Shown one piece after another: positions 23,902 through 48,777 of a stretch of 64,000 nucleotides of DNA (within the stretch, counting starts at the first letter, position 1; every line of letters starts with the position of its first letter). The position numbers and the translations under genes are program-made. The DNA is from Haliotis asinina (lineage: Eukaryota > Mollusca > Gastropoda > Lepetellida > Haliotidae), in NCBI RefSeq assembly GCF_037392515.1, contig NW_027133893.1, positions 186,001-250,000 of the forward strand, written 5' to 3'. The notes under the pieces are model-generated. The model worked only from the letters and a program-made list of their open reading frames with translations, was not told the origin of the DNA and ran no database searches.

Positions 23902-24926
23902 TCAGTGGCCGTGTACACCGATGCAGGCGTCTGTAAAATGTAAACCATGTAAAAAGTGGTTAGGTGTCAGAGGAACGTCGTCATGTGGGTGAGCACTTTG
24001 ATAAGTCAAAGGCCGGGAGTTTATTAGACTTTCAGCACCAACAAACGCTGTCAACAGCTCCTCATGTGTTATATCTCCAGATCCCAGAATGGCATATACA
24101 GCTCGCTTGGCAGCCTTAATCATGGACTCAAAAACTCCACCAAAGCTGGGAGCACGAGGAGGATTAAACTTCCAGATCACTCCTCTATTAGCCAACGATG
24201 ACTTCAGCTTCTCTGTGTCCAGTTGACCAACAAGTTGTTTCAGTTCATTTGCAGCGCCAATGAAATTTGTACCATTATCTGAAAGGATTTCCTTGGGTAG
24301 CCCTCGTCTACTAGCCATCCTGTAGAACACATTAAAAAAGTCTGCTTTTTAGTCAAATATACTGCTCTTGTAGCTAAGCAAGTGAAGAGGCACAAATAGC
24401 ATTTTTGTCTCGACTTTCCACGCCCCTGAATCGTAAGAAATGACCCAGCATAGTCAACACCTGTTTGCTCAAAAGCTCTAAGCAAGTACCTAAAACGCAC
24501 CTTTAGAGTGGTGCCATTATCTGAGCTGTAGGTTTTGCCTTTCGTCGACGACAATGTGTATATTCACGCTCCCATTCTCGGAACAGCAATTATCAAACAA
24601 TGAGATGACAAAATAGCATGCATTTGATTTGTACCAATAATATGATTGCCATTCTCATGTTGTTTCTTAACAATCAACTTCGTCACCCAGTGTTTTCTGG
24701 GCAAAATAATTGTGAACTTTGTTTGGTACGGCAAATAGTCTGCATGTCTGAGTCTGCCATCAGACCTAAGGAGACCATCATCATCCAGAACAGGATGAAG
24801 ATTAATGACTTTGCTACTTTTGGAAATAGACTCTCCCTTTGCTATTGCCAAACATTCTTCAGAGAATGCATCTTTCTGTGCACATAGCAGAAATTCTAGC
24901 CCATACATCCAAGATACAGAGAACAA
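23902..24926 (-). pseudogene. BEL/Pao integrase, frameshifted
   Basis: From 24,926 down: a zinc-binding head with DDDGLLRSDGRLRHADYLPY and a following KKQHENGNHIIG, in which the usual HxxxxH..C pattern is degraded; then FEQTGVDYAGSF with the first catalytic Asp; then ILSDNGTNFIGAANEL with the second Asp; then PSFGGVFESMIKAAKRA with the catalytic Glu; then INSRPLTY and LTPNHFLHG. The D,D,E triad is present but spread over three frames (24,564-24,926; 24,240-24,554; 23,902-24,330). The C-terminal DUF5641-like tail is absent. Confidence 0.85.
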
Positions 24927-24987
24927 TTTTTGAACTGATGTTCCTCTGGTAAGAATATCGGCTGTTTAATTCTGACGGAACTTGTTT

Positions 24988-25593
24988 CTATTGGGAAGTG
25001 TCAGTATGTTCTTGAATGAATGCAACGCGGTTGGCTACAAATGGTTTAAAGTAACGACTGTGGTTCTGGATCCAACGTAATGCATTCATACCATTAGTCC
25101 ACAGTACTGAACAGGAAGTACTGATTTCAAGGGTATGAGAAACAGCCAACATCAACCGAACTCCCAAAACAGCTGCCATTAACTCCAGCCGAGGAATGGA
25201 GACACTCTTCAAAGGAGCCACCCGGCTTTTAGCGGCTACTAGGTGACTTGAGCTGTCACCGTTTTGGTAAGTGTTAACATAATACACGACTGCGCCATAC
25301 GCTTCCTCAGAGGCATAAACAAATACATGCATTTTTGCTGCTGAGACATCAGATTTCATTTGTAAGCATCTAGGAAATCTTAATCTATGTAACTGATTTC
25401 TCTCTTTGATCCATTGTGAGGCTTCATCTTTTAGATCATGATCAAGCACATCATCCCAGTCCATGCATGACAACCACAATTTTTGCATGATGATCTTTGC
25501 TCTTATGTGAAATGGAGCAACAAAACCAACCAAGGGGATCAAATAGTTTGGCAAGCTCTCTGAGAAAGCCTTTCTTGGTAAGTGGCAAGTCAT
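24988..25593 (-). pseudogene. BEL/Pao RNase H region
   Basis: A 201-codon minus-strand open frame contains AKIIMQKLW..DWDD, LRFPRCLQ, HVFVYASEEAYGAVVY and VAAKSRVAPLKSVSIPRLELMAAVLG, ending RYFKPFVANRVAFIQEHT. This matches the A17/RNase H part of Pao polyproteins. In the HVF.YASE block the first catalytic aspartate usually found (F.DAS) is Tyr, suggesting loss of activity. Confidence 0.85.
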
Positions 25594-25599
25594 CTTCTA

Positions 25600-26406
25600 T
25601 GATTGGACTACGGAAACTGAAATCATCATTCTGAGCTACCAAGACAAGACCTAATGTTTTTGCTGATGGTAATTTATCTTTAGCCAAGTTGACGTCAGAT
25701 ACTCTATCCCCAACAGGAATGTGTTTCAGGAATTTGATAACCATTTTCTGGATTGCATTTCAGCTCTTCCCCACAAAGCTGTCAGCTGTTTGTACAATTC
25801 GATACCATCATCCACTTCTGGGACTGAGTTCATACTATCATCCATGTAAGTGGATTTACAAACAGTCTTAGCAGCTTTTGGGAATAGATGCTCAAATGTC
25901 CTTGCATTTTCCCTAGAAATATATTGAGCAGGAAAGGAGAGGCATTCATGCCAAAGAGTACTCTCTAAAATTCATATATCTGTGGTATTTCGGATAATTC
26001 TAATGATCTCCACAAGAACCTAAAGTACGAACAGTCTCTGGCTGGAATTCCTATTTGCAAATACATTTCAGCAATGTCACAAACCAAAGTTATTTGGTGT
26101 TTGCGGAACCTCAAACAAGTCACCCGGAAGTTTAGGACCCTGGTGTATGATATCAATGAAATACCCTGACACTCACTGAAGCATCATAAACAACCCTGAC
26201 TTTGGTTGTACTTCTGTCTGGTTGTATCACAGGAAATTGTTGCAAGAGCCACTGACTGTCCTAAGTGTCTTCATTTGCAGAGATAATCCGGATGTATCCC
26301 TTTGCCAGTAGTCTGAAATAGTTTTATTCTAAACTTCAGCTACGGATGGGTTTTTCAAAAGTTTTTTTCTGTATTACAGAGACGTTTATAGGCCATGTTG
26401 TAACTG
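25600..26406 (-). pseudogene. BEL/Pao reverse transcriptase, broken
   Basis: Blocks in several minus-strand frames include LFGMNASPF at about 25,950, the catalytic-site motif TYMDDSMNSV at about 25,840, and ELYKQL..WGRAEMQSRKW following it. The YMDD box with both aspartates is kept, but frameshifts around 25,750, 25,970 and 26,200 destroy the reading frame, so no enzyme can be made. Confidence 0.8.
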
Positions 26407-26812
26407 TCAGGAAGCATCTGCTTTCCAAGTTATGCCAAACACGTATTGGTTATTTTCATATGTGACCGATTTCTGCACAAAGTCAACAACCGCTTGATCT
26501 TGCTTCGTCAAGATTGGTTCTGATGACTGAAACACTTCTACCTCCCAAACCTTATAAAGTATAGAGTTTAGTTCAATTTCGTTGTCATTTGAGAGGTAAG
26601 TTCTAGAAAGTCTTTGATGTCCTGACTGTTCAGGAACACATGCCATACATGTCCACCCAAGAGGTGCCAGCCTGGCTATTGGTTCTCCCTCAGATCCAGA
26701 AACGTCCTCATAAGATTGATGTAGTTCCAAATAATCCTTCCCAATAAGTAAATCAACAATGTGAGGGACTTTTTCACATGCATCGTGAGTAGTGTACAGG
26801 GTCACCCTGGCG
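26407..26812 (-). pseudogene. BEL/Pao protease C-terminus to RT linker
   Basis: The minus-strand frame contains HIVDLLIGKDYLELH, then GEPIARLAPLGWTCMACV, and ends with the acidic lead-in to RT (KQDQAVVDFVQKSVTYENNQY). In BEL/Pao this is the end of the DUF1758-type aspartic protease followed by the linker to RT. The catalytic DTG triad is upstream of the truncation and absent. The first ~15 codons of the open frame belong to the neighbouring promoter block and are not part of the element. Confidence 0.8.
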
Positions 26813-26820
26813 TCGTTTTC

Positions 26821-27065
26821 AAGATGGCGGCACTTCCGGTCACGTGACCCCCATGGTGACGTCATTCGATTGTTCTAGGATGACGTCATCAGTTGGTGTG
26901 TACGGACTGTGACGTCATTCGATTGTTTAATGATGACATCATCCGTTGGTGTGTACGAGGTGTGACGTGGTCCTTAGCAACGGGGATGTTGCTAAGCAAT
27001 GGTGGTTTGTGCGCGATCTCGCGTGATGTCGCGGGATCTCGCGAGAGGGAGCGTGTTTCAAGATG
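26821..27065. promoter_or_regulatory. Dense promoter-like block (YY1/ETS/E-box/CRE/TCTCGCGAGA)
   Basis: Consecutive matches to known animal promoter words are AAGATGGCGGC (YY1-like, 26,821), ACTTCCGG (ETS-like, 26,832), TCACGTGA (E-box, 26,840), TGACGTCA (CRE) at 26,857, 26,881 and 26,910, a variant TGACATCA at 26,934, TCTCGCGAGA (27,037) and AAGATGGTGGC (27,060). The CREs sit in a 53-bp unit duplicated in tandem (26,856-26,961), giving 24/29/24-bp spacing. The block is GC- and CpG-rich compared with its AT-rich surroundings. Which gene it drives is not clear. Confidence 0.6.
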
Positions 27066-27084
27066 GTGGCAGACGGACGGCACG

Positions 27085-27150
27085 GGACGGGACGAGGGAG
27101 GGAGGGAGGGAGGGAGGGAGGGAGGAGAGGGGAGGAGAGGAGAGGAGAGA
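27085..27150. repeat. GGGA/GGAGA microsatellite
   Basis: A purine-only run of GGGA and GGAGA repeats with strong strand asymmetry lies between the promoter-like block and the 3' end of the minus-strand zinc-ribbon gene. Confidence 0.95.
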
Positions 27151-27236
27151 GAGGACGACGGCAGCTCATAAAGAAAAGCTGGTTCGAGTGTTAAAAAGCA
27201 TGTTCGTCAAGTTTTCCTTTGGGGAGCGTTTGGGGT

Positions 27237-27252
27237 GGCCCTGAAAAGGGCC
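27237..27252 (-). terminator. Histone-type mRNA 3' stem-loop (minus strand)
   Basis: The minus strand reads GGCCCTTTTCAGGGCC followed by ACCCCAAAC. It has a perfect 6-bp stem, a TTTC loop and an ACC tail, fitting the metazoan histone 3' stem-loop consensus GGYYYUUHUHARRRCC-ACC. It starts 22 nt after the stop codon of the 27,275-27,808 gene. A purine stretch (AAAGGAAAAC) about 14 nt downstream is where a histone downstream element would lie. In animals this structure is bound by SLBP and replaces polyadenylation. Confidence 0.7.
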
Positions 27253-27274
27253 GTGAGGTGTGGATACCTCAAAG

Positions 27275-27808
27275 TCAACATCGGCAGACGAGTTTAAGTC
27301 CTCGGAAAACATATTTGCCGGGACAAATGTCATCGTGGAGGGATTGCGTTCCGTTGGGGACACCCCCACCACAATAGGGGCATATGTAAAACTTGGCAGT
27401 GGGGATGACATCGAATCGGTCGGATGGACGGGCTTTCAGACAGGTAGGGCACATGATGAATTGCAATTGGTTTGCTAATTTTCGTAATGCCGTCATTTCC
27501 GCGTTTGCTGTTTTCTGGGGTGTAGTGGCTGTTCTCGCGGTGGTTGATGGTGGTGGTCGTACTGTCGTGCAAGCTCCCGTCGTCCCGTCGTCGTCGTCGT
27601 CGGCGCCATCTTCAATCTTCATGACATGTTCTAGTTGTGGTCGGGGTGTGGTGGTGGTGGCGTTGGGAATGAGGGGCGTTGTCCCTTCTTTCTCTTCTTC
27701 TTCCTTCTTCATGTCGAGGAGGGTCGGGCTGCACCGGAGACATTGTTTTCGTCCACAGTTTCTTTGGTAAGGTGTTGGTCGGGCCATTTTCACTTTTCGC
27801 GTATCCAT
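27275..27808 (-). CDS. Cysteine-rich zinc-ribbon-like protein of unknown function
   Basis: 177 codons from the first ATG on the minus strand (an open frame five codons longer begins at a GTG). The N-terminus is basic and carries NCGRKQCLRC. Residues ~45-95 are low complexity, Glu/Asp- and Thr/Pro-rich. The C-terminal ~65 residues contain MCPTC, ICPYCGGG, a HDDIC and a final CRC, which could bind one or two zinc ions as a ribbon. I do not recognise the family and it is not a histone. It has its own TATA box (minus-strand TATATAAA, 27,863-27,870) about 55 bp upstream of the ATG, and a histone-like 3' stem-loop just after the stop. It is divergent from the gene at 28,020 and shares its promoter region. 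Its frame is intact, unlike most Polinton genes beside it. Assignment to the Polinton is positional only. Confidence 0.6.
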   Translation of the reverse strand: MDTRKVKMARPTPYQRNCGRKQCLRCSPTLLDMKKEEEEKEGTTPLIPNATTTTPRPQLEHVMKIEDGADDDDDGTTGACTTVRPPPSTTARTATTPQKTANAEMTALRKLANQLQFIMCPTCLKARPSDRFDVIPTAKFYICPYCGGGVPNGTQSLHDDICPGKYVFRGLKLVCRC

Positions 27809-27862
27809 ATCTTCGTCACACACGGAGTCGGCGATATGTGAGGGTGCCTAGTCATGGCAATG

Positions 27863-27993
27863 TTTATATATCCTCAGCGACGTCACATCACATTGCGCGT
27901 GAGGTCGTGACGCCATCATGGTGTGTGAGGTCGTGACGTGACGTCACGCTCGTGAGGTGTTGTCCTGTGATTGGCTGAGTTCTGCTATATAGG
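27863..27993. promoter_or_regulatory. Bidirectional TATA/CRE/CCAAT promoter
   Basis: Minus-strand TATATAAA lies at 27,863-27,870 and plus-strand TATATAGG at 27,986-27,993, facing outward. Between them are CGACGTCA (27,878), TGACGTCA (27,939) and an inverted CCAAT box, GATTGGCT, at about 27,969, only 12 bp from the plus TATA. This compact divergent arrangement resembles that of divergent histone gene pairs. Confidence 0.6.
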
Positions 27994-28019
27994 AGGAGGA
28001 GGACGGGGAGTGGACAACC

Positions 28020-28309
28020 ATGGAAGAAAACTGGGATTTAGAGTTGATTTCGTTGGAACCATCCTCACTACCAGCACCACCACCATCACTGCCAGCATGG
28101 CAATGCACCCAGTGCCATGGATGTTTATGGATGTCTATGCCAATGGGACCAATGCCTATAATGGCATGTTCTATTGCGTGTACTTTGGTACGGGACTCAA
28201 AGACACTTACATGCGACGCCTCACCCATGGAAGCAAGTGTCCCGTCAAGAAAACCCAGCTAGACATTCCCCCGTGTCAATGCACGATGCCGCCCCTGTGG
28301 TCGTTGTGA
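28020..28309 (+). CDS. Short plus-strand gene with histone-like 3' end, unknown product
   Basis: The reading frame is uncertain. An ATG in good context (ACCATGG) at 28,020 opens an 80-codon frame starting MEENWDLELISLE and containing WQCTQCHGC, ending at 28,262. A second frame, from an ATG at 28,097 to the TGA at 28,307-28,309, gives 70 codons with MFYCVYFGTGLKDTYMRRL and a Cys-rich end (CPVKK..PPCQC). The second frame's stop lies 18 nt before the stem-loop at 28,328. One frameshift could join the two, or only one may be used. The TATA box is at 27,986 and the CCAAT box at 27,969. I do not recognise the product. It is the only plus-strand gene in the Polinton region that has promoter and 3'-end signals. 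Confidence 0.45.
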
Positions 28310-28327
28310 TCACCACAACGAAAAAAC

Positions 28328-28343
28328 GGCCCTTTTCAGGACC
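28328..28343 (+). terminator. Histone-type mRNA 3' stem-loop (plus strand)
   Basis: GGCCCTTTTCAGGACC is followed by ACCCACATC. It fits GGYYYUUHUHARRRCC-ACC at every position, although one stem pair is C·A rather than Watson-Crick. AAAGAA occurs about 15 nt downstream, where a histone downstream element would be expected. It lies 18 nt after a TGA stop. It mirrors the element at 27,237 on the opposite strand. Confidence 0.6.
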
Positions 28344-28344
28344 A

Positions 28345-28631
28345 CCCACATCTCACTAAAGAATGCTTTCATACCATGGCAATCATAACAAGACATGTGT
28401 TGGTTTTTCAACGTTCTATTTCCCCCACTAACAAGAACCATGGTGACAAAAGAGTCAGGATTAGGGGCGTCCCTGATCTTTTGTTTACAAACGGTATGAA
28501 CTCGAACATGAAGAGAACATAACATCAGAACGATAAGGTTGTGTCCTTTGACAGGGCTGTGGATCCTGGACGTCGTCGTCGTCGTTGTTGTTGTCTGACA
28601 GGCGTGTGAGTTGAAACCAACGTTTTACATG
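28345..28631. other. Gap between divergent gene and protease, no gene recognised
   Basis: A 71-codon minus-strand frame (28,310-28,525) has no recognised motif and includes the antisense of the plus stem-loop. A GTC/GTT triplet run lies at about 28,573-28,597. Confidence 0.35.
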
Positions 28632-29085
28632 TTATTCAGTGACGAGGGTAGCATAGGGATCAAACTGTTCCATCACATCGTCGAACGTCCATCCACGGGC
28701 ACGATGACAAACAGGGTGAACCAGGGTTGAACTGACTGAACATTCCACCACTGTGCGAGCCATCCACTGTAGGTATGACATTCCAAAAGTCGGGATGCAG
28801 TCGGGTGGGGTCGAAGCCATACCTGTCAAAGTAGTCAAAGACACCAGGTGCTGGGCGATACACGCACACCCAGTGTTGTCCTGGGAGATGACTGGGGTCC
28901 GTGTTGACAATGTAGGCTTTAGGATAAGGTCCGTGTCGTTCGCTTAGCACGGTGATGGCAAAGTGATCTCGGGCAAAAGTCCCTTGGTAAAGGGTCGCAG
29001 CAGGGGGTCCTGATGGACGTAGGTGTTCAGATGTTTGGTCGTCAATCCATACATCGTTAGACCATAAGAGCGTTGCGGAACCCAT
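28632..29085 (-). pseudogene. Polinton adenovirus-type cysteine protease, frameshifted
   Basis: In viruses of this lineage the enzyme matures capsid proteins. The minus-strand frame from ATG 29,085 shows YIVNTDPSHLPGQHWVCVY with the catalytic His, then FDYFDRYGFDP with the acidic residue. The C-terminal CHRARGWTFDDVMEQFDP lies in another frame (stop at 28,632), so a frameshift lies at about 28,690-28,760. That interval should carry the catalytic Cys and I cannot place it confidently. The start overlaps the end of the major capsid gene by about 29 bp. About 150 codons in all, shorter than usual for the family. Confidence 0.8.
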
Positions 29086-30350
29086 CAATTTCCAATACGC
29101 TTTCGTATTCCTCGTAGCAGACGAAGGTGACCGGACGAGATAAGGGTTCTGCAAACTGGAGTTCGAGTCCCAACTTGCCCATGTGTCGTGAGTAGTTATG
29201 ACCTTCTTCTACTCCCAGATCCTCCGTCAAATCCACCACCCACAGTGTGAATCCGTTCCTGAACTCGTCTAGGGTGGGGTTGCAGGGATGTTCTTGCCAC
29301 AGGTGTCCCGTGTTGCGAAACAGGTTCATGTACAACTGTTTGAGCGAGCCACTGTTGTTCTGAAAGTCACTTTTGATTTCTGTGCCATGCACTCCCTGCC
29401 ATTGAGTTTCAGCTTGAGACTGGTCACGTTGTGCTTGAAATGAAAGGGGTTCTTTTCCTTGCTGCCGGCAAAAGCATCGTTGTCCACCAGTCCCAACACC
29501 ACACGTTTGGGCAGGTGTCCTCCCATCAGTTGATCTTTGTGGAAATCGTGCCCTCCTCCTGGAATGTTGTGAGCCGTGACTTGGACTCGGTCAAAGGATA
29601 TTTGGCCGTGACTCGTGGCGACGTGTTTCACGTGCTGTTCCTGTATGGCATTATCAATGTTGACTTGGCGGACGTAAAATTCGGCTTTGGTTAGTTCAAA
29701 TCGACATTCTACATCTCCAGCACTCATCAGGTAGAAATCACTCGGGCTCCGAATCAGTTCTAGTTTCATGGGGACGCCATCCAGCAGGTACAGGTCTTGG
29801 AGAAACAGGTCACAGTGGAGACGCCCTGTCAGTTCCACTTCTCGGGTGGGTAGAATGACCCGCCATCGTGCGGCGAGTCCTGCATTGGCATTCTGAGCGA
29901 CGACATTGAAGTCATCCATTTTTCCAGCTTCATCGGTGTACCATCCTGGACACTGGAGATGCGTCCCTTTGGCTGCCTTCCCATAACTCAGTAACGTTTC
30001 CAAATAGGCTCAGTAGGGATAGGTTCCCATGGAAGGGGTGATTTCCAACTGGTTGTGTCCCACTTGCACACGCACTTCTGGAAAGAGGGAATGCATCATG
30101 TTGTTCACTGTGGACATGACAAGTCGGTCATCCCCATCATGAGCGGCATCCGTGTCAATGGTATTCTTGATTTTGAGGCAGATGTGGAGGTAACACTGAT
30201 TCAAATCACAGGGTTAGCAATGTTAAACTGGAGGGGACTCGCCACCGAAAGGGGTGCCAGAGGACTGTATCGAATCCACTGACCCTCTTGAACTGACGTC
30301 ACCACAGGGGGAACTGAAAAGAGATCCAACTGTGGCACATTCACAAGCAT
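29057..30350 (-). pseudogene. Polinton major capsid protein (double jelly-roll), broken
   Basis: It forms the hexameric capsid building block in Polinton-type viruses. The start is ATG at 30,350. Early residues PQLDLFSVPP and EGQWIRYSP are the typical N-terminus. Middle blocks are FLQDLYLLDGVPMKLELIRS and LGLVDNDAFAG..KNPFHFKH. The C-terminus has NGFTLWVVDLTEDLG and YEEYESVLEIDGFRNA. There are three lesions: a frameshift at about 30,204 (ending in TGA at 30,201), an in-frame TGA at 30,010-30,012 after GTYPY, and a frameshift between about 29,330 and 29,392. About 430 codons of recognisable length, shorter than most family members. It cannot yield a capsid as it stands. Confidence 0.88.
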
Positions 30351-32103: not shown

Positions 32104-33102
32104 TTATTTAAAGACCAAATGAGCCGCAGGGATCCATGAATCGAAGCTGGCCGGGTAGCCCGACCACCTCACTAACACTTCTTCACCCTTTGTCAAAGGT
32201 CCCTTTGGTCTTGTTCAAGCAAACACGGGCCTCAGGTAACAAGAGAGAACGTTGGTGTTGACGGTGCTTCTGCTTCGTTGTAAGGGTTGTTGGGATGCAC
32301 ATCCATGGGTCGTTGTCCGATCGTACGATGAAGCCGATGATTGTAGGCATGCATCAGCTGGGGTAAAGCCTTGAGGTAGTGACGTGTTCCATTTTGGGTG
32401 AAATAATTCCACATACGGTTTTTCAACGTTCTTTGAAAACGTTCCACCACCGAGACTTTGGTTTCTGGGTTTTGGCTGGTGTAGAAATGGATGTCCTGTT
32501 TCTTGAGGAAGGCCTGAAAAGGTTTATTGACAAATTCGGTCCCTGTGTCCGTCTGCAACATGGACGGCACACGTCCCTCAGCCTGTTTCAGGATTCGCTG
32601 AAAGGCTTCGATCAATGCGGTGCCAGTCTTGGACTTCATGGGTTGCACCCAAGCCATTTTGGAGAAAACATTGATGACACACAGCAGATACCGATAACCT
32701 TGGTTCTCTTTCTGATAGGCGAGGAGGTCGCTCAAATCGGCTTTGCCACAATTCATCCACGCCACCCACACGGTAATGATCGCTGGAAAAGGACCGCCGA
32801 ACGGGTTTGTGCAAGGTGTACGTGTCCTGAGTTTTCAACAATTGCCGAATCTGATGTTGTGTGAGTGGGAGTTTCCACTTCTGGGTCCTCCCTTTCTGGG
32901 TCCTCCCCTTCTGGGATCCCACTGCTTGCTGTTTTACTGCTGCTTGCCACAAACCACGCCACCCTCCATAGCTTGCCGGATGTGTGGGATCGTAATAGGT
33001 ATGGTGAAGCCATCGTTCCCAGGCAGGCGACAAAGAGGAGGAGGAGGAGGAGGATGACTTGCCGCTGCTGCTGTTGTTGTTGTTTCTCTTTGGACGTCTC
33101 AT
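32104..33102 (-). pseudogene. Polinton retrovirus-type integrase with chromodomain tail
   Basis: The N-terminal part (33,102 to about 32,735) has YYDPTHPASYGGWRGL and YTLHKPVRRSFSSDHY. The core (32,771-32,232) has ADLSDLLAY with the first Asp, MLQTDTGTEF with the second, and SVVERFQRTLKNRMW with the Glu. The last ~25 codons before the TAA at 32,104 are a chromodomain end (LVRWSGYPASFDSWIPAAHL). One frameshift lies at about 32,735 within DELWQ/ADLSD. A second break lies at 32,180-32,232, where the domain between KTKGTFDKG and the chromodomain end is mostly missing. The D,D,E triad is intact but split from the N-terminus. Confidence 0.88.
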
Positions 33103-36740: not shown

Positions 36741-37485
36741 AGCGCCTGTAACATGGAATGGAAAAAAATATTAACATCAACGTTTCGGCAGTTGCATTGT
36801 GCAAGAATGATGTCCTCGGGCCTACAAATGCTCTGTGCGGTCGCGTTCTTTGTTGAGTTAAGTAAGTGAAACCATACTTACTGTGCTGGCATGGAGACGC
36901 TGGCATGCTGACTGCGCTGGTATGACAGAAGAGTGAGTGAGTGAGTTAATATTTAACGTCACATCAGCAATATCTCAGCCATATTGTAACGAGAACATTT
37001 AACAAAGAGAAGGATTATATGTATATTATAAAATCTGTCGGCAAAGGACAGTAAAACAACTAGAATATCACAATTTGAAATAAAACTAGCGTGGAAAGGT
37101 AAAACTAATATCACTATTCGGACAATACAACATAAAATCAGGCTATAGATTGCCAACAACTGAAGGTAGATCACCATACTAGGGATCATGGGGACTTACA
37201 GTACCTTTGCTACCTGCATGGACCCTAGTTGGATTTACATCATCCCCTCAGCTGTTAACAATTTAGTCCCATCTAGCCAAAAATTAAAAGTACACATATG
37301 CTACGATTAAAAACAGTGGAAGTCTAAACGTACAGGAAATGTGTAGGGACTTACGTACCCTCTCAGGAGGACAATAATTTTACGGTACTTCAACCCCCTT
37401 TGAGGGTACAGCCACTAACAATTCAAGTTACTAATCTAAACTACCATGAATTAAAATGCAGCTATCTAGCTACAGTACATAATAA

Positions 37486-40400
37486 TCAAAATTCAGTAAT
37501 GAAATCAATTTCTTTTAAAAAGCAAAGAATTAGGTGAGAACTTGCGGTGTTAAAAAGGTCCTTAATTGTTTTTACATTGAAATAATTATCCCTTACGATG
37601 GGGAATTTAACACAGTCAAGCAGGATATGCTCGATCGTGGTTCTCTCATCACAAAGGATGCAAAACGGAGGATCCTCACCTTTCAATAGGTATGAATGAG
37701 TATATCTAGTATGGCCAATACGACATCGTCTTAAAATAACCTCTTCAAATCTGGACTGACAGCCGAAGTAGGTGTAACCAATATACGGTTTTACTTCACG
37801 CAATATATTTATACCTACTTGGGTGTCCCACTTCTTCTGCATCAGATCACGGATGTAGGTAATCACGCTTTGTAATCAGGGTATGGAAGAAGAAGTGGTG
37901 TCACAGATTTGTTGAGTGCTGCTTTTGCAGCAAGAGCAGCCATCACATTTCCAGAAATACATACGTGACTGGGTAACCAACAAAAGACGATGTCGTATTG
38001 GCCAGTAGCAAGGGTATTATACGGTTCAATAATTTCAATTAAAAGTGGATGTTTACAAGAAATATTTTTAATAGCCTGAAGGCAGGAAAAGGAGTCGGAA
38101 TATATTACATATTGTTTACGTTTAGGGTGTCTTTCAATATATTTAAGAGCTGTTAGCATGGCGTTGGCTTCTGCTGTAAAAATAAAACTATTATCTGGTA
38201 ATCTAGAAGATATTGTTCTGGATCCAATGACAGTAGCACAAGCAAGTGCGCCACCATCCTTGGACCCATCTGTAAATAAGGCTTTGTAGTTGTTATATGT
38301 ATGTTTCAATTGATTATATTTTTGTTTATACTGTAATTCATTCGTTTCTGATCTTTTAAATGTAGTTAATGTGTAGGTCAACCTGTGGCATAACCAGCTG
38401 CCAAGGGGGAGAAGAAAGAAGACCGAAAGGAGCTATATTGTCCAGCTGAATACCAGCAGCAGCAATTAACGGCTTTATTCTGAGCCCAAGAGGTGGAGCA
38501 AGAGAAGACTTTTTGCTATACAAATGGTCATAAAGAGGATTGAAGACACAGTTATAGGCAGGGTTAGACTCGTTAGAGTACAGTTTTGTGATCTATTGTA
38601 AAGATAATTTGATACGGCGTTGTGCAAGAGATGGTTCATTGGCCTCAACGTAAAGAGGTGGAACAAGAGAAGATTTCTTATTGTATAAATCCTCATACAG
38701 GGGATTGAAAACACAGTTATATGCAGGGTTTGACTCATTTGAATATAGTTTTGTTACATACTGTAAAGCTAATTTTATACGTCGCTGCTCAAGAGATGGT
38801 TCATCGGCCTCGACATACAGGCTGTCAACAGGTGAAGTTCTGAAGGAGCCAAGACAAAATCTTAGACCTTGATGATGGACTGAATCTAATAGTTTTAAGT
38901 TGCTTTTGCAGGCTCCACCATAGACAATGGAGCCATAGGCAAGTTTTGAACGCACGAGAGATCGATATAGATGGAGAAAGGTAGCTTGATCCCCTCCCCA
39001 TTTAGAATTTGAAACCACTTTCGACAAGTCAAGTGCTTTTAGGCATTTAGTTTTAAGTGATTTAATATGCGGTAAAAACGTTAAGTGTGAGTCAAAAATG
39101 AGACCCAAGAACTTAGTTTCCTTCACAACTTTAATTGGTGTGCCATCTAGAGATAGGTCAGGGTCTTTATGTGGTTTATATTTACGACAAATATGTATAC
39201 AGTTAGTTGTCGATTTGGAAAATTTAAAGCCGTTTTCCATTTATTAATCTTGTTTAAACACAACTGTATTTGCCGTTCAGTGGTATTCATATTTTTCCCA
39301 CGACAAGAAATATTAAAATCACCCACAAATAACGATCCATGAATTGAGTCGTTTAAAACTTTTGATAAACTGTTTATCATTATACTAAAAAGTGTGACTG
39401 ACAAAATACTGCCTTGTGGAACACCCTGATCCTGATTATAATGATCAGACAGGGCTTATAAATTCAGGCAAACGACCTCGCAAACCTAAATCATGTAAAT
39501 CTCTCAGAATGCCATACTTCTTCCAAGTAGTGTCATATGCTTTTTCAAGATAAAAAAAGATAGACACAGCGTGTTGTTTGTGAATGAGTGCGTTTTTAAG
39601 AAATGATTCCAGTCGCAATAAGTGATCGACAGTACTTCTGTTTTTCCGGAAACCACATTGTATATCTGTGATAAGGTTATTTGTTTCCAAGTACCAAACA
39701 AGTCGATTATTTATCATGCGTTCCATGGTCTTGCAAACACAGCTAGTTAGTGAAATAGGTCGATAATTGGATGGATCCGTATGATCACGTCCAAGTTTAA
39801 GTATTGGTACTACTATGGCGTTACACAATGAGGGAGGAAAGTTACCCGATGTCCAAATATCATCAAAAATATTTAGAAGAGTTTCTAGGCAGGATTCTGG
39901 TAAATGCTTCAGGAGTTGATAATGTATGTTATCAGCTCCTGTAGCAGTATCATGAGCTTAATCAAGAGCAGTATGGAGTTCATGAATCGAAAAAGTTTCA
40001 TTATAATCTTCCCCATTATCTGAGTTAAAATTAATAGTTTTCTTTTCTTGTTGTTTTTGATACTGCTGGAATTTAGGTAAATAGTTAGAAGAGGAAGAAT
40101 GTTTAGCGAGGGTTTCGCCCAGTTTATTTGCGTTATCTGATTTATCAGTAAGTAACTGATTTCCATGTTTAAGATGATGGACAGTAGATTTAATACCTTT
40201 GCGTTTAATGTTCTGCACCATGTTCCATACCTTGGACATGGGTGTCCTCGAATTTATTTTGGACACATAATTTTGCCAAGATTGGCGTTTGTTCTGTTTA
40301 AAAGTACGCCGTGCTTTAGCATTTAGAATTTTAAATTTTATTTAAATTATGCACTATAGGATGGCGACGGAAATAATGTTCTGCTTTTTTCCTTGCCTTC

Positions 40401-40818
40401 CTAGCTTGTTTGCACTCATCGTTGAACCATGGTTTTCTTATGTGTGGAACTACAGAGGACTTTGGTATACACTCATCAGCTATGGAATTCAGTTCATCAG
40501 AAAAGCATTTAATAGCATTGGGAACGTCAGTAAAACGCCCAGGTTGACGTTTTTCAGCACACAGTGTTTCATATAAAGCCCAGTTAGCCTTTTTAAAATT
40601 TCGCCTTGATGATGGAGGAACATCAGATGGAGTTACAGATTTTAAGACAGTAGGAAAATGGTCACTTCCACAGTGGTCATCGTGGGCTGACCATTCGAAT
40701 TCATTTAGTAGTTCAGAATTTGTGAGTGACAAGTCGAGAGCAGAGTAGGTCCCTGTACCCGGGTGTAAATATGTATTGGAACCATCATTATAAATACATA
40801 AATCATTGTCACGGTGAA
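37486..40818 (-). pseudogene. LINE ORF2, 3' two-thirds (endonuclease end to C-terminus)
   Basis: In order from 40,818 down: end of the endonuclease (GSDHFPTVL); a linker; RT blocks IVPILKLGRDHTDPSNYRPI, NNLITDIQCGFRKNRST and SLFVGDFNISCRGKN (VGDF where the plus copy has VDDF, so one catalytic Asp is lost); RNase H with LFTDGSKDGG, TAEANAML, YSDSFSC; and a C-terminal CRIGHTRYTHSYLL..PPFCILC..TIEHILLDC zinc-type motif. At least seven frame breaks. A partial duplication of the YVEADEPSLEQRRIKL..QY segment occurs at 38,560-38,830. Confidence 0.85.
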
Positions 40819-41508
40819 TGTTACGGTGAAGAATTTGTCGTGACAAACTATTTACGAAATTCCCTTGTAAACCAGCAAAACAGAACAAAGACAAGTTGTT
40901 TACGTTCAAATTATATATTGTTAAACCACGAGAGCGAGATATACAGAGTCACAAGTCAATATATATCAATGCTGATTACAAATACATTTCAAGAGAGACA
41001 AAATCTAAGTCAGTGGGTCACAAAAATACAATATATCAAACTCACCAAAGTCTTGATGTGAGAGGGAACAGCTATGGCAAAATGTAAACAAAGCGATCGA
41101 TACAACAGCAGATAATGTAGACAGGATTTCAAGCGTGTTGGTAGTATATCCAAGCGTGGCAGAGATGTAAATCCAGCAGATATGAATGACTATCAGTGAG
41201 AGTGTCCCCCTCCACATGGCAACCAGCCTATTTATACATAAACTAAGTCACTTCCCGAAAGTTCGGGCTCAAACTAACATCGTCAACACTGTAGAATGGT
41301 CTCGAACGAAACAGTTTCCCAGAAGCGAAACATTGAAAACTAAGAGCAGGTAAATTCCGGAATGCCAGAATGCTGAAAGTGTTGACCAGATATTATAGCG
41401 AAATGTGACCCATAATATTTACTATTCAAAACACTAAACATTGTGACCCAATAATAATTAACACTGAATTAATAACAAAATACACAGGAAATACTCACTC
41501 GTAACACT
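40819..41508 (-). repeat. LTR of the Gmr1-type element
   Basis: 690 bp, with ends TGTTAC and GTAACA forming a 6-bp inverted repeat. The polypurine tract lies immediately outside at 41,509, which fixes minus orientation and makes this the 3' LTR. A TATAAATA box (plus-strand 41,229-41,236) lies about 275 bp into the LTR in the right orientation to start transcription. The first 42 bp recur at 43,441-43,482. Confidence 0.8.
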
Positions 41509-41522
41509 CTCCCCCTTGAGGA
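41509..41522 (-). other. Polypurine tract
   Basis: The minus-strand CTCAAGGGGGAGAG directly abuts the TGTTAC start of the LTR, as expected for the plus-strand primer site of an LTR retroelement. Confidence 0.8.
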
Positions 41523-41675
41523 AAAGGAAGTTTCGCAGAAACTTTCTGTTACAACCACAGCAATAATAACATAATAACATGACATGTAATAATATGAGTA
41601 ATATGCAAACCTCTTACAAAATTACAATGACAAAATGCAGATACATACACACAGCATCATCAGGTCATCAAACAT

Positions 41676-42033
41676 TTATACCCTGGAAAGTGCATCAGCA
41701 CAAACATTGTCTTTGCCTTTAATGTGTTTGATCACAAGATTGAACCCTTGCATGGTCAAACTCCACCTCATAAGTCTCTGATTTTTGTTCTTCATTTTGT
41801 GAAGAAAAGTCAAGGGATTGTGACCAGTAAAAACTTCAATTGGCAAAGTGGTGTAAAGCTAACAAAAGACCTAATGTCTCTTTCTCAATGGTTGAATAAT
41901 TTCTTTGGTGCTTGTCAAATTTCTTTGAAAAATAACAGACTGGATGTTCAATCCCTGAATCATCCTCTTGAATCAGGACAGCACCTGCACCAACACCACT
42001 TGCATCAGTTTGCAACTTGAATGAGTGCGTGGG
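41676..42033 (-). pseudogene. RNase H, last domain of the Gmr1-type pol
   Basis: The minus-strand sequence begins LQTDASGVGAGAVLIQ and continues PVCYFSKKFDKHQRNYSTIEKE and LALHHF. After a frameshift come FTGHNPLTFLHKMK, LVIKHIKGKDNVCADALSRV and a TAA. The first catalytic Asp and the Glu of YSTIEKE are present. About 150 nt of non-coding DNA separates the stop from the polypurine tract, leaving no room for an integrase downstream. Confidence 0.8.
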
Positions 42034-43440
42034 CCACTAAAACACTTAAAAGAACAATGGCTCAATGACAGACCTGAGATCAATCTGTTAGACTATGTGT
42101 CTACATTTAGGGACAGATTATCAAAAGCAAGTGCGTTGGCCAGAAGAAACTTAAAAGTTTCTCAAGGAAAAATGAAGCTAAACTATGACAAAAAGTCAAA
42201 AGAGAGAAATTTCACTTGTGATGAGAAAGTGTTAGTTTTGCTTCCCATACCTGGTCAGCCACTGAGAGCAAGATATCAAGGGCCATATGTTATTGACAAA
42301 AAGGTTAGCACCACAGACGATGTTGTCTTGACACCTGGTCGTCGTAAACAAAAGAGACTGTGTCATGTCAACATGATTAAGAAATATCATGACAGGTTAG
42401 AAACTGAACATGTTAATTGTATTGCCACACTCTCCCCAGTTTCTGATTGTACTAAAGACAATTGTGAGAATGTTGACAACATTGATGATTGTGTTAGCAA
42501 TGTGAAGTTTGATGATCTTAGTGATAATGTTTCACCAAAGTTGAGAAATTCTGATGTGTTAGCTCACCTTGATGAGAAACTATCACATTTGTCCCCTGAA
42601 CAGAAAGTTCAGATGTCAGATTTGATTTATGAGTTCTCTCACTTATTTCCTGATGTGCCTGGTCGAACTGATGTTGTTAGCCATGATGTAGATGTAGGTG
42701 ATGCTGTGCCTGTAAAACGACACCCTTATCGGATGAATCCAGTGAAGCGTGAAATTCTACAGAAGGAGGTGAAATACATGCTGGACAATGACATTATTGA
42801 ACCCAGTGACAGTCCATGGAGTTCACCATGCGTTCTTGTGCCGAAGAGTGGAGGTGGTTGGCGCTGCTGTGCTGACATGAAAGCTGTCAATGCACTCTCA
42901 CGAACTGACTTGTATCCTATTCCGAGAGTGGACGATTGCATTGATCGCATTGGTCAAGCCAAGTATATAAGTAAGTTTGATTTACTGAAGGGCTTCTGGC
43001 AGATTCCACTCACAGACTGTGCAAAGAAAATATCGGCATTCGCTACACCAGATGGACTGTATCAATACAAAGTGATGCTGTTTGGTCTGAAGAACGCTCC
43101 AGCGACGTTCCAGAGACTCGTCAACAATGTCATATCAGGCCTTGATCGTGTTGAAGCTTACATGGATGATGTCATCGATTACGACATTACGACATGGAGT
43201 GGGATGACCATCTGAAAAGGACGCGTGCTTTCTTCGAAAGACTGTCGGAGGCGAAGTTAACTGTGAATCTCTCCAAGTGTGAATTCGGAAAGGCAAAAGT
43301 GGATTTTTTAGGGCATGTTGTAGGGCACGGAGAGGTACAACCAGTTCATGCTAAAGTTGAGGCAATTGTACATTTTCCAGTACCTCAATCTAAGACAGAA
43401 CTCATGAGATTCTTGGGTATGGCTGGCTATTACAGAAAGT
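42025..43440 (+). pseudogene. Integrase C-terminus fused ahead of reverse transcriptase
   Basis: One plus-strand open frame (42,025-43,215) starts in the integrase C-terminal region (LNYDKKSKERNFTCDEKVL, ARYQGPYVIDKK, CHVNMIKKYHDR). It crosses an acidic linker and enters RT: VKRHPYRMNPVKREILQKEV, SPWSSPCVLVPKSGGGWR, DLYPIPRVDDCID, FDLLKGFWQIPL and YMDDVI. A frameshift at about 43,190, at an 8-bp direct repeat ATTACGAC, is followed by the rest of RT (VNLSKCEFGKAKVDFLGHVV..GMAGYYRK) to about 43,440. The N-terminal integrase core is missing because of the inversion junction at about 42,030. Confidence 0.82.
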
Positions 43441-43482
43441 TTGAATTAATAACAAAATACACAGGAAATACACACTCGTAAC
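43441..43482 (-). repeat. 42-bp LTR start fragment
   Basis: It matches the first 42 bp of the LTR at 41,467-41,508 with one or two differences and has the same orientation. It is fused directly to the end of the inverted RT segment and marks the right edge of the insertion in the LINE endonuclease. Confidence 0.8.
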
Positions 43483-43930
43483 AAGAACAAAAATCCTCCA
43501 ACAACTTACCTTTAGTGTTTGTAGTTACACTACCCCAGAGTAGGTTGTGCCCATTTAAATCTCCCATTATAATACAGAGCTTCGGGAGCTGGTCATATAG
43601 AGCTTGAAGATCAGTTTTAGTGAACGTCGAAGACGGCGAAATATAAAGACAGCATAGCGTAAACGCTACATGTAAACTAATTCTCACAGCAACAGCCTGC
43701 ATATTAGTATTAAGTGAAACTGGGCTTTGAATAACGTTTTGTGTGACTAGAACGGATGATCCGCCAGTGGCCCTATCACCCGGAGGTGCAAAACAATGAT
43801 GTGCATTAAATTGACGAAGGTCAAATGTATCTGTTTGTTTTAAGTATGTCTCTTGGAGACATATCGCTGAAGGTGTAAAATCTTGGACTCATAGCTGTAA
43901 TTCATGTAAATTAGTCCTCAGTCCTCTGCA
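43483..43930 (-). pseudogene. LINE ORF2, endonuclease N-terminal half
   Basis: The minus strand encodes the APE-type endonuclease start: YTVELQRTED (counterpart of IIQWNCRGLK in the plus copy), a GGSSVLV block, VAVRISLHVAFTLCCLYISPSS, then DLQALYDQLPKLCIIMGDLNGHNLLWG, with the GDxNGHN active-site motif. It is cut at GKLLEDF by the LTR element. Frameshifts and stops are present near 43,890. Confidence 0.8.
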
Positions 43931-45689
43931 GTTCCACTGTATAATATGATTGGAATAAACTATCCTTTGGGGGATTTATTGGGGATCTACCCCGCACTCT
44001 CTTGGAGGGCGACAAGCTATGTGCCCTAGAATGGACGTTTTCAGAAACGTCCATGTCTTCAAGAGATCCGTATTTATTGAACAATTGAATTTTGTTCTGT
44101 GACCCTTTAGGAGCTCTGCCACATTTGTTGTTTTGAAGCATCAGGCTTTGGCTTTGGTTTACTTTTCACCGTTTGTTGACTATCAGCTATCGATTGAGAC
44201 TTTGAGTGTGACTGAGATGATGATTTGTGATCAGAAGAAGACTTTGATGTACTAGGAAGTGATTCTTCAGTCTGTGACGATATATCAAGTCTTTGAAGGG
44301 CATTTAGAAGTGAAATGCATAAGAATGAAGATTTTATGGATATCGACTTCTTTATATGAGAACACAACGTTTCGGAGTTAATGCTTACTCCTTCATCAGG
44401 TGATTGAGAATGGGGTACAGAGCTATATTTATATGTACAGGTAAAACAATAACTAAGTAACAAGTGGAATGAACAAGTAAGGACGATGTACAAGCTTGGG
44501 GATAAGGATGGAAGCCAGTGGTGATACATTACGCATGATTGGAGGATGTTTTCATAACACATGATGATATAGCAGGGTACAAAAGCTGTGGAGAATCGCA
44601 ATTTACCCAAGTCAAGGTAGTTTGGCAGCCTGTGGTTGATGTTGTTTTAGAGCTAGACCCCGATGATGTTTTGGCTACTGCAGCATGACTGTCTTGAAGA
44701 TCAGATCTCTTTACCAGTTTTTTGGCCTCGGAAAAAGAGATATGTTGAGTGAATTTTATTTCATTGATCTCCATTTGCTCTTTCCAAACAGGACAGTGTT
44801 TTGAAAATGATGAGTGTTCCCCGTTACAGTGACATTACTGTCACAATCTTCTTTTGTGTGTGTCTTTTCACTGCAGTGAGCACACACAACAGATAATGTG
44901 CAAGTATTTACACCGTGCCCAAACTTTTGACATTTGAAACACCTAAGAGGGTTAGGAATGTATGTCTCAACATTGAGGTTACAATAACCTGCCTTTAGTG
45001 ATTTTGGTGCAGTAGGTAGAGAAAAGGAAAACAGATAGGTGTTAGTTTGAATGGTTGTGCCATTTTGTCGGGATGAGAAACGTTTTACATTAAGTACACC
45101 CTGATCCTTCATTTCAGAGACGATATCTAGTTCTGACATGTCGGCCAGCATTCGCTAACGATCTCTCACAATCCCCTTGCTCATATTGAGGGTCTTGTGA
45201 GCTGAGACAGTAACGGAAATGCCAACAAAAGTTAATTGACTGTTGTCTTTTGGCACATTCGATCAACAGTGCACCAGAACGCAATCTTCTAATACTCTTC
45301 ACATCGCCGGCAATGCCTTGGATACCTTTAGACACAGCAAAAGGGTTCAATTTTAATGATGTCAAATCATTTGTCTCCATGACAACAAATCGTGGCCAGT
45401 AATCAATTGGTTTGGACAGTCTGAGGTCATTTTCAAGAGGACGTTTAGTCTTTTTGTTTGGGGTTTTGTAAGGAATGGTTTGTGTTTTAGATTTCATCAT
45501 CCAAGCTCCCCACCCACCACGGAGTATCACAAGGACAATGCTAAAAACAAGTGGGTCTCCAACTTGCAGCACCAAGGATACTCGGATGATATACTCCAGT
45601 AGAAGAGTTACAATAAACAAATCCACCAGATTGGCCCATGAGCCACCGCCTTCTGGCATGAGACTCCAGGCAAAAGTGCATAACATCAT
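43931..45689 (-). pseudogene. LINE ORF1 (gag-like, CCHC), decayed
   Basis: From 45,689 down: WPRFVVMETNDLTSLKLNPFAVSKGIQGIAGDVKSIRRLRSGALLIEC (RNA-binding N-terminal part, compared as short blocks with the plus copy), DQGVLNVKRFSSRQNGT and NPLRCFKCQKFGHGVNTC with further CCHC-like Cys/His. Then a Ser/Lys-rich tail ends GSLEDMDVSENVHS..LSPSKRVRGRSP. Frameshifts occur at about 45,130 and 44,770, and an unrelated insert with a hammerhead-like core occupies about 44,320-44,590. Confidence 0.8.
44370..44399 (-). ncRNA. Hammerhead-ribozyme-like core in an insert
   Basis: The minus strand reads CTGATGA, then a perfect 5-bp stem GGAGT/ACTCC closing an AAGCATTA loop, then GAAAC. These are the two conserved hammerhead strands around stem II. 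CAC before CTGATGA can pair with GTG shortly after GAAAC. I cannot identify a convincing cleavage triplet or a full third stem. Such motifs are known in Penelope-like elements and related repeats. It lies in an approximately 270-bp insert (about 44,320-44,590) within the decayed LINE ORF1. Confidence 0.4.
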
Positions 45690-46106
45690 AGTTTAAACTG
45701 TAAACATCTTATGGGAACAATTGTGCCAAGACCAAAGGTTAACATTTTCAAATCAAATTTGGGTGATGATAAATAAATAAAAATCCACACACAGGGCTTG
45801 GCGTGACCAGTCGATTGATAGAATCGGGCCGATTCTACCACCCGTCTAGGTGAAGTAAGGGCCGATGTGGTGTGTTGAGCAATAGGGGCAAAATGGGTCA
45901 GCCTCCTACTGCCCTCAACCACCAGACTACCGTCCTCCACTGACACGGGACGCAACCCACGGCAAACAGGTTGCCCAATTTGGTCGCCTCTTACGACCAG
46001 CAATGGGGTGCTGTGGACACATTCTGTCCCGGGTCCACACGGGAGAAGAGCACTTAGCATTACCCAGCACCCACCACTGGGTGGTGGAGGTGGCTCTTCA
46101 CGGGTG

Positions 46107-47060
46107 CCAGGACCACAGATCAACTGTGCGACTGTCATACCACTTCAACGCAATCACACCTGTACTGAACGCCACTTTAGCGTCCATACAAATATGTCTC
46201 TGTCGGCACGTTCAGCTTTTGGTGTGTAGAAAAACTGGGTTAAATTCTATCCTAAGTACGGGGCATGGGGGTGCATAGATGTATATTTCATCATTACATA
46301 CCACGTATAGAGTAGTTGTGTATCGGTTGGTCTTGTAGCACATTGCTTCACTTGCCTCTGTCACAGGATAACTTTCGGGGTCACTGTTCAGCGCTAGATA
46401 CATTGGGAAGGCCACGTGGTTGGTGCTAAATATGTTGGGTAGGCTCTAACTAGCGGAGACATTCGTGATCAGTAGGTGAACTTTGACCCATGTCAGAGGT
46501 CGTTCTATCGGGTAAAATTGCCCTTCAGATCCTGTTTCAGGGTCACCCCCCCCCCCCCCCCCCGCCCCCCGTTTAAAGAGTGGATCATTAAACTGTAGAC
46601 TAGGCCATGTATTGTTAGGTTTCTTCTATTAGTGTAAGGTAGGGTTGGGCGAAAATTAGGAGTAGGAGGATTTATAGCTTTTGGGTAACGTTTGTATAAG
46701 AACAGGGTTGGTTTAGGGGTCGCTTAAAAGTACAAGTTTAACTGATCTAGAATCAACCAGTTGATGCGATAGTGTGTCATTTATCAGTTGTTAAGTTTTT
46801 GTTTGTATTTTCTACGTATTCTGTTTTGTAATAAATTATTGTCAGTTGTTTACTTGTTTCTGATATTTTCCCTACTTGCCCGATTAACAAACTGGTTCCT
46901 GAGTTTGAAAGTAGAGAACATATCAGCCTGAAACCCTACATTTTAAAAATACACGCAGCGAAGGTTGATTAACATCTAGTTCCTATCTAATTATTTCTCA
47001 AACTCAGCTGTCACTGGGCGAAGGTAACGCACATCAAAACCACGCCTATTACAGATGCAT
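46107..47060. other. Inter-element spacer with poly-C tract
   Basis: No gene recognised. A C18-type homopolymer, interrupted by one G, lies at 46,547-46,570. A single copy of the 47-bp repeat word (AAATATGTCTCTGTCGGCAC) lies at 46,190, some 900 bp from the tandem array of the same word. Confidence 0.5.
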
Positions 47061-47066
47061 TGGAAT

Positions 47067-47325
47067 AACAAATATGTCTCTGTCAGCACGTTCATCTTTT
47101 GATGTATTGTTATAACAAATATGTCTCTGTCAGCACGTTCATCTTTTGATGTATTGTTATAACAAATATGTCTCTGTCAGCACGTTCATCTTTTGATGTA
47201 TTGTTATAACAAATATGTCTCTGTCAGCACGTTCATCTTTTGATGTATTGTTATAACAAATATGTCTCTGTCAGCACGTTCATCTTTTGATGCATTGTTA
47301 TAACAAATATGTCCCTGTCATGACA
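47067..47325. repeat. 47-bp tandem repeat, ~5.5 copies
   Basis: The unit is AACAAATATGTCTCTGTCAG followed by CACGTTCATCTTTTGATGTA and TTGTTAT. Copies are almost identical; the last has GTCCCTGTCATG. High identity suggests recent amplification. Confidence 0.95.
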
Positions 47326-47329
47326 CTCG

Positions 47330-48121
47330 AGAAGCAGGAACAATTTTTGTTTATTAAAATGTTAAAACCTGCATTGAGAATGCAACACCAATCACAATCC
47401 ACTGCTTGTTTGACTGGCATTCTTACAATACATCATTACAGACACAGATTTGTTGTTGATGTATAGAGGGGACTAAGTTCCATGTTTATTCCAATGCCGC
47501 TATCAAGATAATGGTTACTACAAGCAAATAAAAGGAAGCATATATGTATAGTATCAAGCACCAAACTAACAACAGGTAATTTAGCAAGGAGCACATCGTC
47601 AGATGGGGCCAACAGAAAGCGTGAAATAAATCAACTCCACTATGACAAAGTTAAAACCCACTCCATTGTCCAGATGATGGACTCAATCAACATTCAGTAG
47701 GCTTGTTTATCGTGAATGATGTACATGAAACTGCTGCTCTATGCAATAAACAAGGAGTTGTTAGTGGTATGTTTTGTTGTGTAGTATCCCCATACTGTTT
47801 ACTGCAGTATACCTGAGATTATAAGTGCTTCAGTTTGTAAATGACCAATCTTTTGATGTTGATTCAAGTTCAGCTTTAGTACACTTCTATGTAACAAATT
47901 GATCTCAGATTAAAACATCTCATTCCAAATTCATGTAATCCTATTTCAGGTACTAAGAAATGATGATATTTTACATATTAGATAAAAAAATCTGTCAGTA
48001 CTAGTTTGACATGTTTGGTCGCAGGTTAACTAACATAGTGATTATATACTGGACAAAATAAGTTAGGGATATTGGTATTTTTATGATTGATAGAGGCAGT
48101 CTTACCTGACTTAAATCACTC
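47330..48121. other. Unique AT-rich sequence, no gene recognised
   Basis: No coding or RNA feature supported. Its right end holds the target site of the plus-strand LINE. Confidence 0.4.
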
Positions 48122-48777
48122 ATTAATTAACAAAACGGCACCCGTGGCGAGCCACCTCCTCGTGGTGGGTGCTGGGTAACGCTAAGTGCTCGCCAACCCC
48201 CCGTTGTGGACCCGGGGGTATATTTGGTCCACCAACCCGTTTGCCGTGGGTTGCGGCCCTGTGTCGGTGGAGAAGGGGATCCTGGTGGTTGAGGGCATAG
48301 GAGCAGGACCAGTGTTCCTATTGCTCAACACACCACTTTGGCCCTGACTTCACCTAGACGGGTGGTAGAATGGGCCCGGTTCTATCAATCGGCTGGTCAC
48401 GCCAGGCCCTGTGCATGGGGATTATTTTTGCACATTTTCATTGTACTGTTGGGTCTTGGGTCTTGTTCAAAGTCAGATTTTATTTCTCTGCATCGAGGAA
48501 ATTGCCTAGAGTCCTATGCCAGAAGGCGGTGGCTCATGGGCCAATCTGGTGATGTTGACCGCTGAATTCTATATGTCTTTGGATTATTGTTATGGGCCGA
48601 ACCAGCCTGACAACTAATCTTTTGGACAAATATAGCTATTCATGTCATATTTACTGGAGTATACCACCCCTGTATCCCTGGTGTTAGCATCCTGGAGATC
48701 CGGTGCAAATTGACACCGTCCTTGTTGACACTCCATGGTGGGTGGGGAGCAGGGGTGCTGAATTCGTATGTTATACC

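Follow-up and report, generated by a model that had tools for sequence, protein, structure and literature searches.

A Polinton in the genome of Haliotis asinina bears the hairpin of histone mRNA 3' ends on at least three small-protein genes of its own, here called A, B and C, and the arrangement is kept in about two dozen copies of the element. To our knowledge, the histone stem-loop is generally regarded as private to replication-dependent histone genes in animals, and we know of no report of such mRNA 3' ends in a Polinton/Maverick. A, B and C encode small cysteine-rich proteins; judged from sequence, their transcripts would very probably be processed by the host SLBP and U7 and probably be tied to S phase, and those of the protease gene of the same element would be polyadenylated.

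A divergent gene pair at the left end of a Polinton

The window is the whole stretch of DNA that was analysed, 64 kb in length. A strict stem-loop pattern, GGYYYTTHTHARRRCC, has exactly two matches in it on both strands together, where 60 first-order Markov sequences give an expectation of 0.033 per 64 kb for both strands; this expectation holds for one chosen motif, and many other motifs could have caught a reader's eye. The same two sites are the only ones in the window matched by RF00032 (Histone3) among Rfam matches up to E 10, with 28.0 bits (E 8.6e-4) for gene A and 29.8 bits (E 1.7e-4) for gene B, both under the gathering score of 34.

On the minus strand, the original prediction had placed a stem-loop followed by ACC 22 nt past a stop codon, and this is borne out. 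GGCCCTTTTCAGGGCC+ACC is found at 27237-27252, 22 nt after the stop codon at 27275-27277, which closes an open reading frame at 27278-27847. Gene A itself (27275..27808, minus strand, stop codon included) has an open frame for a protein of 177 aa. The stem-loop claimed on the plus strand is likewise in its stated place, with GGCCCTTTTCAGGACC+ACC at 28328-28343 lying 18 nt after a stop (TGA, 28307-28309), but in the window copy its third pair is a C.A mismatch, the fold is poor, and the frame of the gene is broken. This gene B (28021..28309, plus strand) specifies a small cysteine-rich, zinc-finger-like protein. The frame that opens with ATGGAAGAAAAC at 28021 runs into a stop near 28261, and it is a different frame that ends at 28309, so start and stop do not belong together and B is broken in this copy.

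The divergent promoter between the two genes (27848..28020) contains all of the predicted sites, namely outward TATA boxes, CRE-type sites and a CCAAT box. These are a TATA box for the minus strand at about 27863, ACGTCA at 27880, TGACGTCA at 27939, ATTGG (CCAAT reversed) at 27970 and TATATA for the plus strand at 27986. All 20 of the loci L055-L074 from the genome search described below have ATTGG and TATA near -52/-36 of gene B, although in L063 the two stand at -58/-42. An outward TATA box for gene A is present in 19 of these 20, and the promoters carry at least two CRE-like sites. The terminal repeat of the window copy also holds a cluster of three full CRE palindromes (TGACGTCA), at 26857, 26881 and 26910.

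That the gene pair stands at the edge of a Polinton proved right as well, the left end of the element being at 26788. The element is a Polinton, an identity based on AGTAGT termini, 6-bp target duplications and an rve integrase together with sub-threshold protease and double-jelly-roll matches. The left terminal inverted repeat (26788..27254) starts with AGTAGT and has its inner border at the gene A stem-loop. It aligns with the left repeat of another copy, L009, from the first base, with 87% over the first 384 alignment columns; in L009, which has matching ends and a target duplication, the repeat covers 98-552 and the stem-loop 535-550. Of four copies compared at both ends, three (L009/L010, L012/L013 and L014/L015) have repeats starting with AGTAGT and 6-bp duplications, which are GACGCA, CATGAC and CACATT with the flanks read by eye. 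For the fourth and diverged pair (L016/L017), the end alignment stopped short of ends of the AGTAGT and duplication type. From one outer end to the other, a whole copy on C1 is 18.5 kb long.

A retroviral-type integrase ORF is located at 32235..32834 on the minus strand (Pfam rve, E 5e-11). The protease-like gene (28663..29208, minus strand) is convergent with B, and in copy L055 its best Pfam match, weak and sub-threshold, is to Peptidase_C5 (E 0.049). The ORF at 29329..30009 (minus strand) is one that we take to be capsid-protein-like, partly from general resemblance; the best match in L055 is to a DJR-like domain and is again weak and sub-threshold (E 0.1). A sequence search of PDB gave no match for the capsid-like ORF of the window or the protease of L055, searches of PHROGs and PDB returned nothing useful, and a protein search with a penton-like ORF found nothing. 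A structure prediction for the capsid-like ORF from its single sequence had a mean pLDDT of 30 and was too poor for use.

The window copy is old and damaged, and retrotransposon sequence breaks into it at about 36.9 kb and beyond; a search of the window for the right terminal repeat and for gene C found neither. To the right of the Polinton genes, the region 36938-54139 holds inverted LINE-like copies with other sequence between them (family names by eye). Directly adjoining the left end are the remains of a retrotransposon at 23905-26787 on the minus strand, recognised by ORF reading and presumably BEL/Pao-like. The Polinton therefore seems to have been inserted into them.

Retention and base pairing of the stem-loops among copies

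The window's own genome, 1.14 Gb in 159 contigs, was searched for the A/B module, which resulted in 50 matches (57 candidates, 40 scored). Thirty loci were fetched (L049-L078), L049 being the window itself, and retention was counted wherever the gene end was readable. Gene A has its stem-loop, at a distance of 21-22 nt from the stop, in 24 of 28 such loci, with all six pairs in 23 of the 24; it has been lost in L051, L052, L053 and L078, which are near relatives of the window copy. The gene B stem-loop is present in 28 of 29 loci, at 18-24 nt from the stop in 27 and at 44 nt in one, and all six pairs are formed in 26. L078 is without the stem-loop of B as well as that of A. An Rfam scan of 20 loci (13 with A/B and 7 right-end or other loci) gave a Histone3 match above the gathering score in 18, with up to 41 bits. 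The copies are related, so the copy number is not the number of independent tests. Absence of the stem-loops from relatives, named in the original prediction as counting against it, was checked and the opposite was found, most copies retaining them.

Chance could be invoked on a genome scale, where the reversed pattern still has 74 forward and 79 reverse matches, as compared with 217 and 383 for the pattern itself. Chance hairpins are nevertheless of negligible probability in view of where the stem-loops lie, how they pair, what flanks them and how often they recur; the copies rule them out.

The stem of gene B is conserved by base pairing and not merely by its letters. At pair 3, 16 rows have C-G and 15 have T-A, and the two odd rows with C.A or T.G are the window copy and L050, in a set of 33 rows from which five loci were excluded beforehand and which was filtered for the downstream element in a similar way to the set used for the other pairs. 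On a tree made free of the stem-loop, the C-G label at this pair requires at least three changes, two of which are forced by well-supported branches. The other five pairs are constant except in one row of 32, in a filtered set that demanded the downstream element, is thereby biased to intact copies, and holds one place twice (L040, L051). The stem of gene A is nearly invariant and thus gives no covariation test.

Compensatory changes in the stem argue against a hitch-hiking relic, that is, a histone 3' end captured once by chance and carried along without use. Capture does seem to happen in this genome, since another dispersed repeat family bears a histone H4-like 3' end. However, the stem-loops are present in diverged subfamilies: gene A of L016 and L047, with the stem-loop 20 nt after the stop, differs from that of L055 by a dN of 0.45-0.46 and a dS over 1.5. 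Three genes are concerned, moreover, with no alternative poly(A) signal, and we hold a relic of this kind to be very improbable.

Genes A and B are under purifying selection. For representative pairs with a dS over 0.08, A has dN/dS values of 0.23-0.72 and B of 0.08-0.65, the maximum coming in both cases from a pair with the damaged window copy. An open frame of 105 aa is found for B in 14 of the 28 loci listed. Near its C-terminus, A has the arrangement C-x2-C ... C-x2-C ... H-x3-C, a pattern that by eye is common to A and B. Pfam returned a weak zf-4CXXC_R1 match for A (E 0.002, under the cut-off), no match for A of L055 and none for B, and the search of a large protein set found no relative of A. 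The structure predicted for A from its single sequence was too poor for use (mean pLDDT 44).

Three things go beyond the original prediction: a third gene, the siting of two of the stem-loops in terminal repeats, and a likeness to the 3' ends of the host's own histone genes. Among the matches listed, on C1-C4, a minus/plus pair of stem-loops about 1.1 kb apart is accompanied by a further plus-strand one about 16.5 kb on. Gene C, found at the other (right) end of the element and reading outwards, encodes 172 aa with zinc-knuckle-like motifs (Pfam zf-CCHC, E 0.014, under the cut-off). It ends 20-23 nt before the stem-loop in L008, L010, L013, L015 and L017, and 59 nt before it in L019. A same-strand gene C follows B at a distance of 8-60 kb in 21 of the 30 A/B modules, and at 15.0-16.1 kb in 13 of those 21. 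The inner end of the terminal repeat, present twice, is the stem-loop and downstream element of A in one copy and those of C in the other; the stem-loop of B is separate.

Four loci (L003, L004, L019 and L039) appear to be diverged relatives of the element, also with a histone-type hairpin. A different kind of ORF is situated 91 nt ahead of the hairpin in L003, and a protein that is C-like by eye ends 76 nt ahead of it in L039.

Downstream elements and poly(A) signals

PF00125 has 87 matches in the genome, many of them in two kinds of tandem cluster. The two kinds (C27/C103 and C11/C40) are present in one assembly, the first with a unit of 3,580 bp and the second with one of about 4.9-5.0 kb. 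One unit per cluster kind was used, giving seven complete core-histone ORFs (four in L079 and three in L080; an eighth is cut off), and by a relaxed pattern all seven end 26-35 nt before GGTCCTTTTCAGGACC. This relaxed search is preferred to a list of nine host stem-loops from exact matching, which is circular for the hairpin sequence. Five of the nine have AAAGAATGCTT 13 nt after the stem and one differs from it at one base; two H2B ones depart more from this downstream core, and one is cut off.

The downstream element of gene B (28358..28368, plus strand) is AAAGAATGCTT, identical to the core of the host histones, and the exact 11-mer is found in 28 of 28 loci at 14 nt after the stem. When the B downstream stretch of one copy was letter-shuffled 20,000 times, 11 of 11 bases were obtained in no shuffle and 10 of 11 in five. 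Gene A is followed by a downstream element-like stretch (27209..27220, minus strand), which agrees with the host core at 10 of its 11 bases in 21 of 24 loci, at 9 in two loci and at 8 in the window copy.

Searches for the U7 snRNA itself did not find it, and the candidates were rejected. RF00066 gave no match anywhere, controls included. A first pattern gave one match (control 0) at a rough estimate of about 0.4 chance matches and with the pairing to the downstream element built into the pattern; this candidate is unrecognised by Rfam and, by eye, the usual U7 hairpin is absent. A second pattern gave two matches, against six for its control.

AATAAA or ATTAAA occurs within 500 nt after gene B in 0 of 26 loci (L049-L074), and within 480 nt after gene C in 0 of 6. 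After gene A, ATTAAA alone is found, in 2 of 23 loci within 600 nt, a stretch which runs past the end of the element; the three loci of L049-L074 without the A stem-loop were left unscored. On the strand converging on B, AATAAA is present 91-104 nt beyond the B stem-loop in 24 of 26 loci (L049-L074); in L055, the protease-like ORF has its stop codon about 65 nt before this signal. It is absent from the window copy, which has AATAGA at about 28420, and from L072. Since no poly(A) signal follows B and AATAAA stands on the opposite strand, a single element appears to employ two types of 3' end, each on its own genes. The absence of a signal is not absolute even in histones, as AATAAA stands within 300 nt in two of the eight host histone 3' flanks that could be read.

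Histone-style 3' ends, as originally proposed for the gene pair, are supported by these results, in that the stem-loop, the stop distance, the 3' flank and the downstream element are retained in most copies. Further support comes from the compensatory changes and from the lack of a poly(A) signal after B as against the conserved convergent AATAAA.

The palindrome could instead work as DNA, being a site for replication, packaging or a terminal-repeat protein and not an RNA signal. Two of the three sites are at the inner border of the terminal repeats, and the switch from C-G to T-A preserves a DNA palindrome too. However, the loop TTTC is non-palindromic, the orientation is fixed relative to the coding strand, and the spacing from the stops is about 20 nt with a histone-like downstream element on the 3' side. 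The site of B lies outside the terminal repeat, and the poly(A) signal missing after B is present on the convergent strand. A role as DNA is thus improbable.

Proposed processing and timing, and comparison with known systems

In the preferred reading, the host SLBP would bind the hairpins of A, B and C, and the host U7 snRNP would pair with the downstream element. Cleavage would then give A, B and C mRNAs free of a poly(A) tail, which may be stable and translated mainly in S phase. The products are small, cysteine-rich and unlike the capsid-like ORFs, which suggests regulatory or accessory and probably early proteins, made when the host DNA synthesis machinery is available. The protease gene and probably other structural genes would give ordinary poly(A) mRNAs. 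The A and C signals lie within the terminal repeats, so the same repeat would end both outward transcripts before they leave the element. Both the RNA 3' ends proposed for A, B and C and their expression in S phase are inferred; the S-phase coupling follows, if it holds, from established knowledge of the histone pathway.

With somewhat more reserve, we also favour a wider reading. With three small regulatory genes on host SLBP/U7 and the structural genes on poly(A), the 3'-end machinery may split an S-phase or early class from a later one, and the two terminal-repeat signals may provide the element's own cell-cycle link.

Alternatively, the histone-type ends could be real and processed but serve as compact terminators only, without coupling to S phase, for example by stopping outward transcripts at the terminal repeats or by parting B from the convergent protease gene. 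Two of the three signals are indeed in terminal repeats, that of B faces a convergent gene, and the sequence is silent on timing. Yet SLBP/U7 processing is tied to S phase in the animals studied, and CRE-like, CCAAT and TATA sites, which are found in many histone promoters, are kept in the shared promoter. For a cnidarian, the stem-loop, the downstream element, the lack of a poly(A) signal and S-phase expression have been given as hallmarks of the histone pathway (PMC5011920). A function as terminators only is therefore rather unlikely, and we retain the coupling of A, B and C to S phase as the better explanation.

Searches of full-text literature, which excluded most subscription journals and all preprints, brought up no account of a Polinton, virus or transposon with histone-type 3' ends. 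IMG/VR, where the records of this genome are possibly absent, gave no loci for the exact stem-loop+ACC or its degenerate form, nor for the protease, capsid, penton-like and integrase queries. No relative from another species came out of these scans or of the protein searches with gene A and the penton-like ORF.

A dispersed repeat family that is not a Polinton ends in an H4-like 3' end, GGTCCTTTTCAGGACC followed by a stretch like AAAAGAATGCTTGATAACTTGA. The same protein ends 23-24 nt before the stem-loop in L029, L035, L041 and L042, and the family is also found at L007, L022, L028, L030, L031, L033, L034, L036, L037 and L038. On reading of the loci, the dispersed GGTCCTTTTCAGGACC matches (L007, L028 and others) were rejected as Polintons; the family may be a host gene family, a retroposon or a captured histone 3' end. 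In L048, an ORF at 500-1432 on the minus strand has a SET domain (Pfam SET, E 7.8e-11) and ends 13 nt before GGCCCTTTTCAGGGCC. Eight GGCCTTTTTCAAGGCC matches on C4, at 13-27 Mb, may resemble it, and the one that was read (L027) is SET-like by eye. The SET-domain ORF is possibly another non-histone user of the hairpin. Should the H4-like family and the SET ORFs prove similar, the histone 3' end would be a reusable module in this genome and not a histone monopoly.

A stem-loop kept on three non-histone genes of a transposon or virus lineage, together with the host downstream element, would show that the histone pathway can be borrowed. It would also point to a way in which a Polinton, with no poly(A) tail on its mRNAs, couples gene expression to host DNA synthesis. 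The many copies in one genome constitute a natural test set; poly(A)-selected RNA-seq would miss such transcripts.

The stem-loops of A and B satisfy GGYYYUUHUHARRRCC with an AC(C)-type flank shortly after the stop. The element thus shares with animal replication-dependent histone genes the same 16-nt hairpin, the UUUC loop, the AC(C)-type 3' flank and the position soon after the stop. It also shares a downstream element identical or nearly so to that of the host, the lack of AATAAA (B and C), and a divergent gene pair with a shared promoter. Unlike histone genes, A, B and C encode non-histone proteins and are located inside a transposon, with the signals of A and C inside terminal inverted repeats. 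The AGT-type termini, the 6-bp target duplications and the length of 18.5 kb are those of a Polinton/Maverick (adintovirus-like), as are the rve integrase and the protease-like and capsid-like ORFs. Adenoviruses are alike in having a linear genome with terminal repeats and a related protease, and in the CRE/ATF and CCAAT sites and early transcription units towards the genome ends, but differ in that their transcripts are polyadenylated.
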